Shown: in pieces, positions 48,944-55,311 of the stretch
How positions within the stretch are numbered: position 1 is the stretch's first letter
Layout: the number at the start of each line of letters is the position of its first letter
Assembly (NCBI RefSeq): GCF_018325905.1
Contig: NZ_AP021901.1
Span: 62,001 to 126,000, forward strand
Direction of reading: 5' to 3'
Length of the DNA: 64,000 bases
DNA from: Pseudomonas sp. St316
GTDB lineage: Bacteria; Pseudomonadota; Gammaproteobacteria; Pseudomonadales; Pseudomonadaceae
Made by a program: the position numbers and the translations under genes
Notes under the pieces: model-generated
What the model saw: only the letters and a program-made list of their open reading frames with translations
Database searches by the model: none
Told to the model about the DNA's origin: nothing

Positions 48944-49513
48944 ATGTCATTGAACGACTCTGAACATCTGAAGGACCTGTGCACCCGTTTCAACTCTGGA
49001 GAACATCTGGAGTTCACTTTTTTCTGGGGGCACCAGCGCAGCAAAACCGGCGTCACGGCTTCGTGCTTCAGCCAGTGGTTCGAGGCCGGCTTCACTGTCG
49101 ACGGTCAGTATTACCCGACAGCCGAGCACTTCATGATGGCTGAGAAAGCAGCCCTGTTCGACGATCAGGAAATCCGTACACAGGTGCTCCACGCGCCTAC
49201 TCCTAATGCCGCCAAAGCACTTGGCCGCAACGTGCGCGGATTCAATGACAAGATTTGGCTGCAACACCGCTACGACATCGTCGTCCGAGCGAACCAGGCC
49301 AAGTTCTCTCAGAATCCGCCGTTGAACGAATACCTTCTGCAAACCGGTTCGCGCGTTATTGTCGAAGCCAGTCCGGTTGATAACGTCTGGGGGATAGGGC
49401 TCGCGCAGGACAACGCGGATGTGAACAATCCGAATCTGTGGAAAGGTTTGAATCTGCTGGGGTTTGCGCTGATGCAGGTGCGGGATGGGGCTGGTATGGC
49501 AGCCGAGATGTGA
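48944..49513 (+). CDS. NADAR-family (YbiA-like) ADP-ribosyl glycohydrolase homologue
   Basis: A 189-aa protein of the NADAR/DUF1768 family. Signatures include FFWGHQ, YPTAEHFMMAEKAALF, the ALGRNVRGFNDKIW stretch and a DNVWGIGLAQDN end. Known members remove ADP-ribose from modified guanine bases or act on riboflavin intermediates. Its place beside NAD-consuming TIR and SIR2 defence genes makes a role in ADP-ribose handling attractive, but that is inference. Its composition is intermediate between the core and the island. Confidence 0.83.
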   Translation: MSLNDSEHLKDLCTRFNSGEHLEFTFFWGHQRSKTGVTASCFSQWFEAGFTVDGQYYPTAEHFMMAEKAALFDDQEIRTQVLHAPTPNAAKALGRNVRGFNDKIWLQHRYDIVVRANQAKFSQNPPLNEYLLQTGSRVIVEASPVDNVWGIGLAQDNADVNNPNLWKGLNLLGFALMQVRDGAGMAAEM

Positions 49514-49727: not shown

Positions 49728-50195
49728 GTGGTGGAGAAAAGGAATGTATTTATCAGCCATGTTCACAAGGATGATCATGGACTACAAAAACTCAAGGATT
49801 TGTTGGCTCCAAAAGGAATGGATATTAGAGACTCCTCCATCCATACGGGGAAATTCAATAATGCCACTGATGAGAACTACATAAAGACACAGATTCTTGC
49901 GCCAGCTATAAACTGGGCTGGTGTATTTATTTGCTACATTTCCCCCCAAACCCAGAACAGTGATTGGGTTAACTGGGAGATCGAATATGCCGCCAAACAG
50001 GGAAAACGCATTGTTGGTGTTTGGGAGCATGGCGAGAAAGAATGTGATCTCCCTAGGGCCCTAAAAGAGTATGCAGACGCTTTGGTCGGGTGGAACGGTG
50101 ATGCCATTATTAATGCTATCAACGGGAAGGACTCTTGGGAAAAGCCTGATGGCGATGTATGTGACCCGGTGCCACTGAAGAGGCACCCCTGTTGA
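49728..50195 (+). CDS. TIR-like (DUF1863/ThsB-type) protein
   Basis: A 155-aa TIR-like protein of the DUF1863 kind, to which the Thoeris sensor ThsB belongs. It opens with KRNVFISHVHKDD and carries WVNWEIEYA with the likely catalytic Glu (E84). Such domains split NAD or make cyclic ADP-ribose signals after phage sensing. The start is GTG (49728), with purine-rich GGGGGG shortly before. It leads a four-gene operon with an Nmad2 gene whose ATG overlaps its stop. Composition is AT-rich, pointing to transfer. Confidence 0.82.
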   Translation: MVEKRNVFISHVHKDDHGLQKLKDLLAPKGMDIRDSSIHTGKFNNATDENYIKTQILAPAINWAGVFICYISPQTQNSDWVNWEIEYAAKQGKRIVGVWEHGEKECDLPRALKEYADALVGWNGDAIINAINGKDSWEKPDGDVCDPVPLKRHPC

Positions 50196-50821
50196 TGTCT
50201 CGTATCCATTCCTATGTTGTGCGGTATGACAGCGGTTTCGCCCCCAATCCGTTCTACGACTACTGCACGCTTGCGACCTGCAAGCCCGGAATTCGTCGAG
50301 CAGCTCAAATTGGCGATTGGGTAGTCGGTAGTGGAAGTAACGACCGAAATGTTCGACTCGGCGGGCATCTCGTTTACGCAATGCGTGTAACGGAAGCGAT
50401 GACATTTGATGAATACTGCTTAGATCCTCGGTTTGAAGCCAAGAAACCATATCGAAATGGCAGTCGGAAGCAAAGCTGTGGAGACAATATATATTTCAGG
50501 GCTGAGGATGGAGCGGGCTGGCAACAGCGAGATTCGTTTCACTCCCGTTCGGATGGTTCGGTCAACCCAGATCACGTGGCTCGTGATTCGAGAGTTAACA
50601 GGGTACTGATTAGCGACGACTTCGTATATTTTGGGGGTGGTGGCCCTGAGTTTCCCGATAATTTAAAAGATCGGTACGGTCGCCATCTATGTAAGAAAGG
50701 AATAGGGCTAACTACTTTCGCGGATGCACAACTGATTGGGGATTTTGAAAAATGGATTCGTAGCTTTGGTGTGCATGGCTATCAGGTTGCTCCATTCGAA
50801 TGGTTGAATCTTCGCAGGTGA
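50195..50821 (+). CDS. Nmad2-domain protein (nucleotide modification associated)
   Basis: A 208-aa protein matching the Nmad2 domain: GFAPNPFYDYCTLATCKPGIRR near the start in two stretches, IGDWVVGSGSNDRN, LVYAMRVTEAMTFDEYCLDPRF, and NRVLISDDFVYFGGGGPEFP. The domain was named from its co-occurrence with nucleotide-modifying enzymes in phages and bacteria; its reaction is not known. The ATG at 50195 overlaps the TIR stop by one base, which implies translational coupling. The MazG-like gene follows 3 bp later. Confidence 0.78.
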   Translation: MSRIHSYVVRYDSGFAPNPFYDYCTLATCKPGIRRAAQIGDWVVGSGSNDRNVRLGGHLVYAMRVTEAMTFDEYCLDPRFEAKKPYRNGSRKQSCGDNIYFRAEDGAGWQQRDSFHSRSDGSVNPDHVARDSRVNRVLISDDFVYFGGGGPEFPDNLKDRYGRHLCKKGIGLTTFADAQLIGDFEKWIRSFGVHGYQVAPFEWLNLRR

Positions 50822-50824
50822 CCT

Positions 50825-51961
50825 ATGAAAAAAGAAGGCTCCCTACTGCTCTCAGATTACACTGCGGAAATTGTTGCCACCGACGTACTTGATCCGAATG
50901 ACTTTAATTCTGTTCTCCAGGGTTTATACGGAGAGGTCGGCGGAATAATGGCTACGGCCAAAAAAAACGTTCGAGAGGGGGCTGCTTACCCTGGGTTCAG
51001 GAAGGCCGCAGAAGAAGAGTTTGGCGATACTCTTTGGTATTTTGCTGCAATATGCAGACGTCTGCAGATATCTCTTGAAGATATATTTAAGGAAGCCGCG
51101 AATCACGGAAATTTCCGAAATGTGGGGGCTGCAAGCGACGTAATCGAAGGTGCGTTAGCCTATATTGCTGTGCCAGTAGACCCCACTACTTCCTTGGATT
51201 CCTCATTGGTGCGCCTTGGGCAGGCAGCGGCAGCTTTACTGGGAAATACGCCTGTTCCCGCTGATTTGATTTCTTTCGCACGGGCCTACCTAGACGCGAT
51301 GTATGCGGCCAAGCTTGCATTTTCCGAGGTAGCTCGTGGAAATCTTCGGAAAGCCCGTGGTGCGTTCTTGTATCCGCAGGTAGAGGATTTAGTTGGTCTT
51401 GATTTCGATAGTGAGTTTGGAGTTGAAGAACAGCTACCTAGAAACTTCAAGATCCGGGTGAATCAGCGGGGAAGTGGTAAGAGTTATCTCCAATGGAATG
51501 AAGTATTCATAGGAGACCCTCTGACAGACAACATTGCCGACCCAGATGGCTATCGGTTCCACGATGTGTTTCATTTCGCATATGCAGCAATTCTTCACTG
51601 GTCACCTGTGACGCGGGCACTCATCAAGCATAAGCGAAAGAGTAATCCGAGGTATGATGAAGAACAGGATAGCGGTCGCGCCATGGTCGTGGAGGAAGGG
51701 CTTTCGGCTTGGATATTTTCCAGAGCCAAGGAGCTGAATTTTTTCGAAAGCCAAGATAAGGTTTCACTTGAATTTCTTAAGACAATTGGTGAATTCGTGG
51801 TTGGTTACGAAGTGGAAAAATGCCCGCTGAAGCTCTGGGAGAAAGCAATTTTGGATGGCTATGCTGTGTTTCGTCAGCTTAAGACGAATAAAGGCGGTTG
51901 GATCATTGGCAACCGAGAAGAACGCACCATAACGTACATGCCGCTTGAGTCTGAAAAATGA
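50825..51961 (+). CDS. MazG-like NTP pyrophosphohydrolase, two-part
   Basis: A 378-aa protein. The first 85 residues look like an all-alpha NTP pyrophosphohydrolase: GLYGEVGG (E37) and EEEFGDTLWYF (E65, D68) supply metal ligands, though the second Glu of the usual ExxE is Gly (G40). The second half has a separate His-rich motif YRFHDVFHFAYAAILHW and EEGLSAWIF, perhaps another metal site. Such enzymes clear unusual (d)NTPs. It lies 3 bp after Nmad2 and overlaps the next gene by 4 bp. Confidence 0.75.
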   Translation: MKKEGSLLLSDYTAEIVATDVLDPNDFNSVLQGLYGEVGGIMATAKKNVREGAAYPGFRKAAEEEFGDTLWYFAAICRRLQISLEDIFKEAANHGNFRNVGAASDVIEGALAYIAVPVDPTTSLDSSLVRLGQAAAALLGNTPVPADLISFARAYLDAMYAAKLAFSEVARGNLRKARGAFLYPQVEDLVGLDFDSEFGVEEQLPRNFKIRVNQRGSGKSYLQWNEVFIGDPLTDNIADPDGYRFHDVFHFAYAAILHWSPVTRALIKHKRKSNPRYDEEQDSGRAMVVEEGLSAWIFSRAKELNFFESQDKVSLEFLKTIGEFVVGYEVEKCPLKLWEKAILDGYAVFRQLKTNKGGWIIGNREERTITYMPLESEK

Positions 51962-52623
51962 AAATTCACCCGTTTGTTGATGCAGTTGCTTCGCTGCGTT
52001 TTGAGGACTGTTTCAATCCATATTCGGATCGTTGCGAAATACATGATCGGCGCGATGCGCCGCGGCGTCGTGCTGCCGCGTTGTCCGCCATGTTGCGTCG
52101 CGCATCCGAAGACTCTGTAGACGCTATATGGATCGGGAGAGATCTCGGATACCGCGGAGGGCGTCGTACAGGGTTAGCTCTGACCGACGACGTCCACATA
52201 AGCGAGCACGTTAGACGTTGGAATCTTGATCTGCTCCATGAACGGCCGACTATAGGTGCTGCTGTGACCGAACGCACTGCTGCGGTCATATGGAACATGC
52301 TTGAACAAATTGACGCTCGTATATTTCTCTGGAATGTCTTTCCTCTTCATCCGCATCAATCTGGAGATCCGTTCACAAACCGGCAACACAACGCCAGTGA
52401 AAGGCGAGCAGGGGAAGAGTTGCTTCAACAGCTTATCGCCTTGTTAGGGCCCTCGCGCATTGTGGCGATTGGCAACGATGCTGCCGCTGCGGCACATCGC
52501 ATCACCGATTCGATACCCGTGGTTTGCGTGAGGCATCCTAGCTACGGAGGGCAAAGCCAGTTCCAGAAGCAGATCACGGATCTCTATGGGAGCTCCATGA
52601 GGAGCTCCGCGTCGTTGTTCTGA
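51958..52623 (+). CDS. uracil-DNA-glycosylase-like protein
   Basis: A 221-aa protein resembling uracil-DNA glycosylase superfamily proteins. It has AIWIGRDLGYRGGRRTGLAL in the place of the first active-site motif, FLWNVFPLHPH, and VRHPSYGG as the C-terminal His motif. The first motif departs from the classical GxDPG, so its target may be a modified base and not uracil. It ends the TIR-Nmad2-MazG operon, overlapping the MazG-like gene (ATGA). Confidence 0.72.
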   Translation: MKIHPFVDAVASLRFEDCFNPYSDRCEIHDRRDAPRRRAAALSAMLRRASEDSVDAIWIGRDLGYRGGRRTGLALTDDVHISEHVRRWNLDLLHERPTIGAAVTERTAAVIWNMLEQIDARIFLWNVFPLHPHQSGDPFTNRQHNASERRAGEELLQQLIALLGPSRIVAIGNDAAAAAHRITDSIPVVCVRHPSYGGQSQFQKQITDLYGSSMRSSASLF

Positions 52624-52797: not shown

Positions 52798-53376
52798 CTA
52801 TCGGCTGTAGCGTTGCCACAACGGAGCACCGCGCGCAAAGCTCTTGAGATTGCTCCACTGATTACCTCGGTCTTCCACAAAATGATGCGTGACATAGTTC
52901 TCCAGTTTTTTAGTTACCACCGGATATAACCCAAGGTATTCCTGCCCCTCAAAGCTTTGACCCTCCGAGTCCAGCAGCGGGAGGATTGCGACTTGACCAG
53001 GTTTGTGACCATCAAAGAAGCCCAGCTCCCAAGGCATCCATTTCGATCCTGATGAGTTGTCAGTGGCGATATACACCATGGCTCGTGAAGACTTCATTCG
53101 TTCCCGCAGAACTGCAGCGGTCTCTTTGTCCACCCAGCTGCGGTCCAGCTTTTTGTCAACGACCCAATCCACATAGACCTTTAGGCCCTGTTTTTGTAGC
53201 AACAGCATCACCCCCAAGACGAGGTCAGAGTCATCAATCGAATGAGACAGAAAAATGTCGAACTCCTCGCGAGGTTTATAGTTCTCCATTGATTCGGTCA
53301 GAACAGCTTGTGACGTGCGATAGCCACGAGCCCCGGCCGCAGCCGCACGCGCCTCGCTTTTGGTGAAGAAGGCCAT
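52798..53376 (-). CDS. second TIR-domain protein of the Thoeris locus
   Basis: A 192-aa protein with a TIR domain from about residue 38 (FDIFLSHSIDDSDLVLG), a conserved WVDKE stretch and WMPWELGFFDG holding the likely catalytic Glu (E117). It is of the classical bacterial TIR kind, different from the DUF1863-type ThsB beside it. Thoeris loci often carry several TIR proteins, each thought to sense other phages and to make the cADPR-isomer signal. It starts 19 bp after the ThsB stop, last in the operon. Confidence 0.85.
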   Translation of the reverse strand: MAFFTKSEARAAAAGARGYRTSQAVLTESMENYKPREEFDIFLSHSIDDSDLVLGVMLLLQKQGLKVYVDWVVDKKLDRSWVDKETAAVLRERMKSSRAMVYIATDNSSGSKWMPWELGFFDGHKPGQVAILPLLDSEGQSFEGQEYLGLYPVVTKKLENYVTHHFVEDRGNQWSNLKSFARGAPLWQRYSR

Positions 53377-53865: not shown

Positions 53866-55311
53866 CTAACCCCCAAGCTTCTTGATGATGGACAGAACTT
53901 GTTTCTCGATAGTGGTACGATCAACTGCTGGATCTGCGAGCTTTGCTAGTGCCTGCTCTAACCAAGGGTGCTGGGAAAAGTGTTCAGCGGGATTGGCTAG
54001 CATCTCGTCAGCTAGCTCTTTGGCCATGTAACCGGTCGCGCCAATAGGTAATGCAATTCCTCCCTTCTCCTGGGTGATAGAAAACTCAATACGTACGCCA
54101 CCAGCATTAACAATGGTGTTGTCGTTGATCTTATTGCCGAAGATAAACAGAGCAATACCAGAAAGCCCAATCATGCGGTGCCTATACTCGTGCCACAGTT
54201 CTTGGATGTCTTGGCCATGCGAGGCGACTTGCGGGAACGGCCGCATGATGAGCTGGTCCTCTGAGTACTTTTCAGGCCTGGCGTAGATTGCATCGAGCGC
54301 TCCGTTGATGACTGCGCTACCTATGCCCCACCCAAATCCATTGACGACTCGATAACCTCCTTTAACCAAGGAGGCCGAGAGGGAGTGTACAAAATTTAGG
54401 GCTTCTTGCTTGTCCCAGGTACCATATTCCTCTGCGCTGCCTGAGATGAATATGGTCTTCTTGAGGAAGCGACTTTCGATCTCCTTCAGAATGAGCGGAA
54501 TGTCCTCATAGTTATCGACCAATAGCGCCTGGATTCCAAATCGCAACAGATCGCGGACATGGTGCTCCTGTCGTCGCTGTCGATACTTCGCGGCGTCTGC
54601 GTCTTCTTTCCATTGTGGCTCCGCAGGTTCCTTGCGAAGAAAGCAGTAGTGGGTTCGCCGGTAATCATCCGGCACGTGCAGTCGACTCAGGACATAGTCG
54701 AGATTCGGGTCCGTGAAGCTGAAGCCAATAAATAGAAATGTTTTTGAGATCAGGTCCCCACTAAGGGCCGTTACGAAGGCTTCATGGGTTTTATGATACT
54801 TCTCATACTGGGATTTGTAGAGGATGGCTGCACCTGGCGAAGACACGTCACCATGCATCTTATAGACGACCGCGTCTCGTTTAGGGCGAGTGGTCACGAG
54901 GTCATCAACCTTGCGTTTTGTATCTGCGACACGGTAGTTCGCTTTGAGGCTGTCCTCAATCAGCGTGTCATAGTTGGTCGTCCAGTATGTCCTGATCGGA
55001 AGCCGCGCCACGATATTGTGAGCTTCTGAAGGTTCCGCCTGTTCCGAAAATTCCTCGAGGATTTTCCGAGCCAGCCCGGTCGAGCTGTTCTTCTTGTTGA
55101 CATGATACTGCGCGACAGAAATGAGATCGTGTTCCAACTCAACCTTGAGACCCAGTTCTTCGGCAATCTCGCTGAGCAGCTCGCTCCAGTTTACGAAGCC
55201 ACAACTTTTAGAGAAGCCGGCACCGGCGAATATCGCCGCTACGCCATCCTCAAGATCTTTAACGTACGTTCTGATGAACGCATCAATTTCAGGTGAAAAT
55301 TTTTTAGTCAC
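53866..55311 (-). CDS. thsA: ThsA, SIR2-STALD NADase effector of Thoeris
   Basis: A 481-aa effector with an N-terminal SIR2-like NADase domain and a C-terminal STALD (SLOG) signal-binding domain. Active-site residues are in place: N113 in WTTNYDTL and H153 in YKMHGD, matching the essential Asn and His of the B. cereus protein. The STALD part begins near residue 284 (KKTIFISGSAEEYG) with VNGFGWGIGSAV. On signal binding it drains NAD and halts phage growth. The start is GTG at 55311 with a strong GGAGG 9 bases before. Confidence 0.93.
   Translation of the reverse strand: MTKKFSPEIDAFIRTYVKDLEDGVAAIFAGAGFSKSCGFVNWSELLSEIAEELGLKVELEHDLISVAQYHVNKKNSSTGLARKILEEFSEQAEPSEAHNIVARLPIRTYWTTNYDTLIEDSLKANYRVADTKRKVDDLVTTRPKRDAVVYKMHGDVSSPGAAILYKSQYEKYHKTHEAFVTALSGDLISKTFLFIGFSFTDPNLDYVLSRLHVPDDYRRTHYCFLRKEPAEPQWKEDADAAKYRQRRQEHHVRDLLRFGIQALLVDNYEDIPLILKEIESRFLKKTIFISGSAEEYGTWDKQEALNFVHSLSASLVKGGYRVVNGFGWGIGSAVINGALDAIYARPEKYSEDQLIMRPFPQVASHGQDIQELWHEYRHRMIGLSGIALFIFGNKINDNTIVNAGGVRIEFSITQEKGGIALPIGATGYMAKELADEMLANPAEHFSQHPWLEQALAKLADPAVDRTTIEKQVLSIIKKLGG

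Follow-up and report, generated by a model that had tools for sequence, protein, structure and literature searches.

We describe a four-gene module in a 64-kb stretch (hereafter the window) of the 6.78-Mb single-contig genome of Pseudomonas sp. St316. Between positions 49,728 and 52,623 of the window, a TIR protein, an Nmad2 protein, a two-part MazG-like protein and a protein of the uracil-DNA glycosylase (UDG) superfamily follow one another on one strand, and comparison with related loci shows that they form one inherited unit and, almost certainly, one functional unit. We consider it moderately probable that the four encoded proteins do the sensing and signalling in a Thoeris-type abortive-infection system, whose effectors carry SLOG domains and have been exchanged repeatedly between cores. 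The genes are as follows.

49728..50195, + strand: TIR protein of the ThsB family (PADLOC PDLC00418), 155 amino acids (aa), GTG start; ThsB_TIR E=2.1e-22
50195..50821, + strand: Nmad2 protein with a predicted PUA-like (ASCH/EVE/YTH) fold, 208 aa; 247 bits; pLDDT 93.3
50825..51961, + strand: two-part MazG-like protein, 378 aa; dUTPase/MazG-like domain at about residues 7-186, MazG_C at 193-374
51958..52623, + strand: UDG-superfamily protein, 221 aa; 36 bits; family-specific first motif at residues 61-72, RHPSYGG motif at 192-198

All four open reading frames (ORFs) are intact, with zero internal stops. The TIR and Nmad2 genes overlap by 1 nt in the junction TGATG (50193-50197), a 3-nt gap (50822-50824) separates the Nmad2 and MazG-like genes, and the MazG-like and UDG-like genes overlap by 4 nt in ATGA (51958-51961). 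A preliminary description of this DNA had reported four same-strand genes joined by overlaps or a 3-bp gap, and its coordinates and junctions proved exact on recheck. It had also proposed counting how often the neighbourhood recurs across genomes. Our genome scan returned 125 Nmad2 relatives, the best 80 of which were kept for such counts (loci are numbered with the prefix L). A TIR of the module family lies upstream of Nmad2 at 75 of the 80 loci, a MazG_C gene lies downstream at 69 and a UDG gene at 65, and all four genes stand in order at 63, including L083, whose TIR is 1.7 kb upstream and which was counted by hand. Some of the remaining 17 are cut by a contig end or broken, six have the HMUDK form described below, and four are without TIR and MazG_C (L087, L090-L092). 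The TIR-Nmad2 junction, measured from starts picked by script, ranges from -14 to +20 nt in 78 pairs and is the identical 1-nt overlap in 43. The four proteins have diverged together: across 61 loci their six pairwise comparisons give r of 0.84-0.96, and for each pair none of 500 permutations in a Mantel test gave a value as high.

The association of TIR and Nmad2 is reciprocal. A TIR match was found in 46 plasmid records; in each of the 11 that match best (36.8-91.6% identity), Nmad2 follows the TIR immediately and in the same orientation, and the other 35 (34.8% identity and less) have zero Nmad2 matches; six of 17 plasmid Nmad2 records are without such a TIR match, one of which (CP018236, L096) has a degenerate partner. 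Among 369 genomes of the class and 398 of the phylum there are two TIR hits other than that of the window (E<=1e-15), both with Nmad2 adjoining. The four-gene set is rare: an Nmad2 match occurs in 12 of 298 genus genomes and a MazG_C match in 4 of the 398 phylum genomes, the window genome included in each count. These results bear on the alternative that a routine operon for DNA repair or nucleotide house-cleaning happens to follow a TIR gene, a chance placement that the preliminary description had itself named as fatal to its proposal. Nothing beyond the family names favours it, and the fixed order, the co-divergence and the reciprocal association are all contrary to it; we reject it as having almost no prospect of being correct. 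The earlier view of the four genes as a conserved, immune-looking unit is sustained. A phage origin of the core is likewise rejected, as Nmad2, UDG and MazG_C, the three proteins used in that search (the TIR was not included), have zero matches in 50,697 phage records. Three scans of IMG/VR yielded 12, 7 and 4 loci, among them full sets at L106 with a Glu-bearing TIR, at L119 with the gene order unchanged but a degenerate partner, and at L124, where all four genes are present in a different order.

Immediately downstream of the module, and convergent with it, lies a complete Thoeris locus (ThsA and two ThsB TIRs) that the preliminary description had overlooked.

52798..53376, - strand: ThsB-type TIR (PDLC00422), 277.5 bits
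53396..53863, - strand: ThsB-type TIR (PDLC00433), 227 bits; ThsB_TIR 2.3e-23
53866..55311, - strand: ThsA effector with SIR2 and SLOG (STALD) domains, 481 aa; STALD 254.9 bits; PDLC00407 660.9 bits

Two features of Thoeris type I are present here: the locus encodes a ThsA that combines SIR2 and SLOG (STALD) domains, and the module TIR is a ThsB with a catalytic-type Glu; both downstream TIRs likewise align Glu at the catalytic position. PADLOC already includes the module TIR family among its ThsB profiles (PDLC00418), which the window protein matches with 305 bits over residues 2-155 of 155. The catalytic-type Glu that had been claimed for this TIR is present (E84), but the idea of an orphan alarm does not survive: the protein belongs to the ThsB family, a full Thoeris locus adjoins it, and SLOG effectors stand beside most of its well-flanked relatives. 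The likeness to Thoeris type I systems with several ThsB proteins lies in the adjoining ThsA SIR2-SLOG and ThsB-type TIRs and in the fit of the module TIR to a ThsB profile. The module differs in having one ThsB fixed in an operon with Nmad2, MazG_C and UDG, in the C-terminal Cys that this ThsB keeps in all relatives examined, and in the several SLOG effectors that accompany it besides ThsA, which is present at 6 of the 80 loci while most others have different SLOG proteins.

When 6409 ORFs taken from 92 loci were clustered, the recurrent neighbours, named by Pfam, included SLOG cluster 3, SLOG cluster 2, a SLOG-patatin fusion, SIR2-SLOG and further TIRs. We call well-flanked the 58 TIR-bearing loci whose flanks reach 4.5 kb or more upstream and 5.5 kb or more downstream. 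A SLOG-type protein is found at 50 of these, an extra TIR at 49, and TM228, a putative membrane protein without a Pfam match, at three; L040, L048, L066 and L075 have no effector, and L056 has a weak TIR match only. Over all 75 TIR-bearing loci, 68 SLOG genes lie near the core versus one far from it (872 versus 506 kb), and extra TIRs number 107 near versus 3 far. A Glu-bearing TIR stands beside a SLOG-domain effector in most close relatives, and fewer such pairings occur among distant loci. Eleven further Glu-bearing loci include five with SLOG/ThsA (L102, L106, L138, L139, L141), of which L139 repeats L041, and one, L099, with a patatin and no detected SLOG. The other five (L096, L098, L120, L137, L140) have no effector or a 23-bit match, a weaker picture than in the main set. 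Although these five loci have slightly lowered our confidence, we judge it likely that the module is anti-phage and feeds SLOG effectors.

A separate comparison comes from loci in which the TIR partner has lost its Glu. At four such loci of the same genus (L133-L136) the same profiles find no SLOG effector, so that a SLOG or TM228 effector occurs at 53 of 58 comparison loci versus none of the four (Fisher p 2e-4, uncorrected for kinship, with profiles built from the comparison loci; L119, L121 and L124, also Glu-less and with no effector seen, were omitted for their short flanks). That the loss of Glu coincides with the absence of a SLOG effector fits TIR catalysis feeding SLOG effectors, and the existence of Glu-less, effector-less loci shows that the core can exist without TIR-SLOG output. 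The type of effector has changed repeatedly. On a quick tree of 61 cores, in which 9 of 55 branches are open, the effector state has a parsimony minimum of 14 changes when 'none' and combinations are scored as states. The window core proteins have their best matches (82-93%) in loci that carry an SLOG3-type effector wherever one was found; L066, tied for the TIR, has no effector, and L021 and L025 end early. The ThsA/TIR set of the window is closest to that of L041 (80-85%), where the seven genes all run in one direction. With its core nearest to SLOG3-type loci but its ThsA/TIR set nearest to L041, the window adds another effector exchange.

The three proteins encoded behind the TIR have family assignments of differing firmness. 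Nmad2 matches the PF18753 profile with 247 bits (cut-off 26.1), and its predicted structure gives weak to moderate matches to PUA-like (ASCH/EVE/YTH) folds; against viral structure models the best E is 7e-3, with ASCH-type proteins in the top rows, and a sequence search of the PDB returned no match. In the MazG-like protein, MazG_C scores 273.9 bits and MazG 14.6, under the curated cut-off of 22, and the N-domain is dUTPase/MazG-like by fold comparison. No fold match is confined to MazG_C, although some dimeric dUTPase alignments extend to residue 346, and this does not establish a new fold for it; its most conserved residues, H246, D247 and H250 (100 of 100 rows), look like a catalytic metal site. 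The UDG-like protein scores 36 bits against PF03167 (cut-off 24.3) and has intact UDG motifs, with UDG 4zbx/4zby as its best weak sequence match in the PDB (E 0.055). Its first motif had been called altered, and the alteration is real; it is not peculiar to the window but the rule of the family, R61, D62, L63, G64 and R66-G72 being invariant in 34 aligned rows, the window included. The suggestion that such proteins read or clear odd bases accords with the predicted PUA-like Nmad2, at weak to moderate match strength, and with the dUTPase/MazG-type N-domain.

Of the 75 TIR-bearing loci, 65 have UDG, six have an HMUDK-type protein instead, four that are cut or broken have neither, and none has both; the swap is also present in other fetched loci. 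The HMUDK-type protein is assigned to the 5-hmdU DNA kinase helical family through its L075 copy, the only one compared with PF18723 (335 bits). A glycosylase fold for HMUDK was considered and set aside, a sequence-profile search of the PDB having yielded noise only.

In the mechanism we favour, Nmad2 with its PUA-like fold, MazG/MazG_C and UDG (or HMUDK) would sense or process an unusual pyrimidine, as base or nucleotide, arising in phage infection, with dUTP and 5-hydroxymethyl- or hypermodified bases as candidates. Handling of this trigger would switch on the TIR, which would then make an ADP-ribose signal from NAD+; binding of this signal to the SLOG domain would let the effector, which in the window is the SIR2 NADase of ThsA, stop growth. 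That the trigger is base or nucleotide chemistry is guessed from the fold and the family names, and we regard the matter as evenly balanced. Capsid sensing is one reported case of how ThsB TIRs recognize infection. The module offers a dissectable case, in which one ThsB family is hard-wired to three base- or nucleotide-handling proteins and used with many effectors, and it would link two ideas of defence, alarms based on NAD signals and the recognition of modified phage DNA.

The TIR alignment draws attention to two residues.

49977..49979, + strand: codon of the catalytic-type Glu84; E in 81 of 82 aligned relatives, L007 being the exception
50190..50192, + strand: codon of Cys155, the last residue; conserved as Cys in 82 of 82 aligned relatives

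This 82-member alignment used a 100-bit cut, and three divergent partners below the cut were added later. Cys is among the last five residues in all 98 TIR-partner rows, degenerate ones included (last in 68, second last in 26), a set that contains duplicate fetches of one gene such as L002/L138, L003/L041 and L007/L136; eight of these Cys-keeping rows have Ala, Ser or a gap in the Glu column. A database search with one degenerate partner recovered a sub-family in which 16 of 16 members end in Cys-Gln and 16 of 16 have Ala at the Glu84 position. The background frequency is low, with Cys in the last five residues of 7 of 356 proteins from 14 neighbouring families, TIR59 excluded. TIR59 is a short second TIR family beside the core (L061 9268-9852 and relatives) in which five of seven have Cys in the last two residues, so a tail Cys is not confined to the module TIR.

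A tail Cys also recurs on Nmad2 where the TIR is missing. With a TIR-less-type Nmad2 as query, 97 of the 120 listed matches (138 in total) have Cys in the last four residues, as do 85 of the 92 among them that are at least 225 aa long, the tail being variable; with the window-type Nmad2, where the tail Cys would be expected on the TIR instead, only 2 of the 120 listed among 7969 matches have one. Of ten fetched Nmad2 proteins without a detected TIR, judged by eye, eight have Cys in the last four residues (L009-L012, L079, L087, L091 and L123) and two do not (L090, L122); the flank was 1.5 kb for L009-L012, L079 is cut by a contig end, and L092, with a broken frame, was excluded. The Nmad2 system nearly always carries a tail thiol, either on its TIR partner or on most of the stand-alone Nmad2 proteins. 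We found no report of a C-terminal Cys in ThsB in the open full-text literature, including passages of PMC12578639 (subscription papers lie outside the scope of this and the other literature searches), and its conservation appears to be a new observation. It also provides a one-residue handle on the recognition mechanism.

Three other accounts of how the module works deserve to be weighed. The first is a two-tier defence in which UDG would act on phage DNA as a Brig-like glycosylase, with Nmad2 as a reader, MazG/MazG_C as a cleaner of deoxynucleoside triphosphates and TIR/ThsA as a back-up. Brig1 (PMC11078745) and Brig3 (PMC13160076) are described as UDG-superfamily glycosylases that stop phages via abasic sites; the same papers place a ThsA-like gene near Brig1, cite Brig2 as active in Pseudomonas against modified-thymine phages (preprint PMC13160076), and name 4ZBY, the best weak PDB match of the module UDG, as a close structural homologue of Brig1 (PMC11078745). 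Intact motifs in the 34-row UDG alignment and MazG_C-UDG pairs on plasmids without detected TIR or Nmad2 are also in keeping with such a defence. However, the replacement of UDG by an HMUDK-type protein, never with both together, is hard to reconcile with UDG as the sole weapon, and the module TIR family never occurs without Nmad2 in the reciprocal checks on plasmids and on class and phylum genomes; we consider this account unlikely. The likeness to Brig1, Brig2 and Brig3 is that of a UDG-superfamily protein in a defence setting, drawn by family and not by sequence, and the module UDG differs in belonging to a fixed four-gene set.

The UDG/HMUDK exchange speaks for the second account, a nucleotide messenger, whereby MazG_C and UDG or HMUDK would make or trim an unusual pyrimidine nucleotide as the signal for TIR and SLOG proteins, in a 'nucleotide-centric' system. 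The resemblance of H246, D247 and H250 to a catalytic metal site points the same way, as does a plasmid on which genes annotated as thymidylate synthase and nucleotide kinase lie beside MazG_C, but the thymidylate synthase name has no Pfam support. Moreover, ThsA-type SIR2-SLOG proteins are reportedly activated by cADPR isomers (PMC11204291), which a TIR alone can make, and we find the messenger improbable. The same exchange would also be explained by a thiol trap, in which the Cys tail acts as a sensor that covalently catches a reactive group left by the base-handling enzyme on phage DNA or nucleotides and so switches on the tethered TIR. UDG would leave an abasic site as that group, and the HMUDK-type protein an activated hydroxymethyl base, and the seemingly unrelated UDG and HMUDK could then replace one another. 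If true, this would be immunity through chemical trapping of modified DNA; we rate it as improbable. A Thoeris-type core that signals to SLOG effectors remains the explanation we prefer.

Several described or predicted systems share parts with the module. The DefensePredictor study (2026, PMC13092281) lists NMAD, MazG, MazG-C, UDG and aGPT-Pplase among the domains of its predicted systems (section 8 and the legend of Fig. 6F) and gives the abbreviations TS, dNMPk, 5hmdUk and NMAD for validated systems in the legend of Fig. 3C. The systems that it validated include ones containing a 5-hydroxymethyluracil kinase and a thymidylate synthase; the main text contains no word beginning 'TIR'. These systems share domain names with the module, a comparison made by domain lists and not by gene order. 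In the open full-text literature we found no paper that names Nmad2 together with TIR. Whether the four-gene set is undescribed, as first supposed, is uncertain, since it may be among the DefensePredictor predictions. The TIR-SLOG-DrHyd 'nucleotide-centric' conflict systems (Burroughs et al. 2015, as excerpted in PMC9503650) resemble the module in their TIR/SLOG networks, and a further likeness is the degenerate TIR partner at L004, whose DrHyd-like match to PF05014 reaches 24.9 bits, under the cut-off of 28.8.

The module lies in a GC-poor stretch (0.48-0.52 across 49-56 kb, versus 0.54-0.66 in the surroundings), a composition in line with acquired DNA. A short repeat, in copies that are 73-94% alike, flanks this stretch at about 47.6-47.9 kb and 56.2-56.7 kb, and no tRNA integration site was found within the window. 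Directly 5' of the module is a NADAR-domain gene (48944-49513, + strand) that scores above the cut-off of TIGR02464, reaches 136.5 bits to the PADLOC candidate PDC-M42C and falls under the cut-off of the anti-phage NADAR model. A NADAR gene adjoining the core is absent from the other loci compared, and in an empty-site comparison at this gene the flanks of NADAR homologues and relatives failed to align.

Some loci outside the main set carry only parts of the core. At L093-L095, L097, L100 and L101, MazG_C occurs with UDG or a nucleotide-kinase-type gene and no TIR or Nmad2 was detected; these loci adjoin HTH and mostly ImmA/IrrE or C1 peptidase genes, and may represent a different defence design built around this core. 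At L100 there is a clear acyl-carrier-type gene (PP-binding, 32.7 bits), and L094 and L097 have a gene annotated as holo-ACP synthase. The idea that MazG_C loci without TIR carry their thiol on an acyl-carrier-like protein is kept as a lead only, one of five candidates passing the PP-binding cut-off of Pfam. At L011, L012 and L090, the last a Lokiarchaeota metagenome-assembled genome, a TIR-less Nmad2 adjoins an unnamed gene of 261-323 aa, and the starts of these neighbours are alike by eye. On a Parabacteroides plasmid (L098, 7001-11643), a radical SAM gene and an uncharacterized gene of 521 aa come after those for TIR, Nmad2 and a nucleotide kinase.

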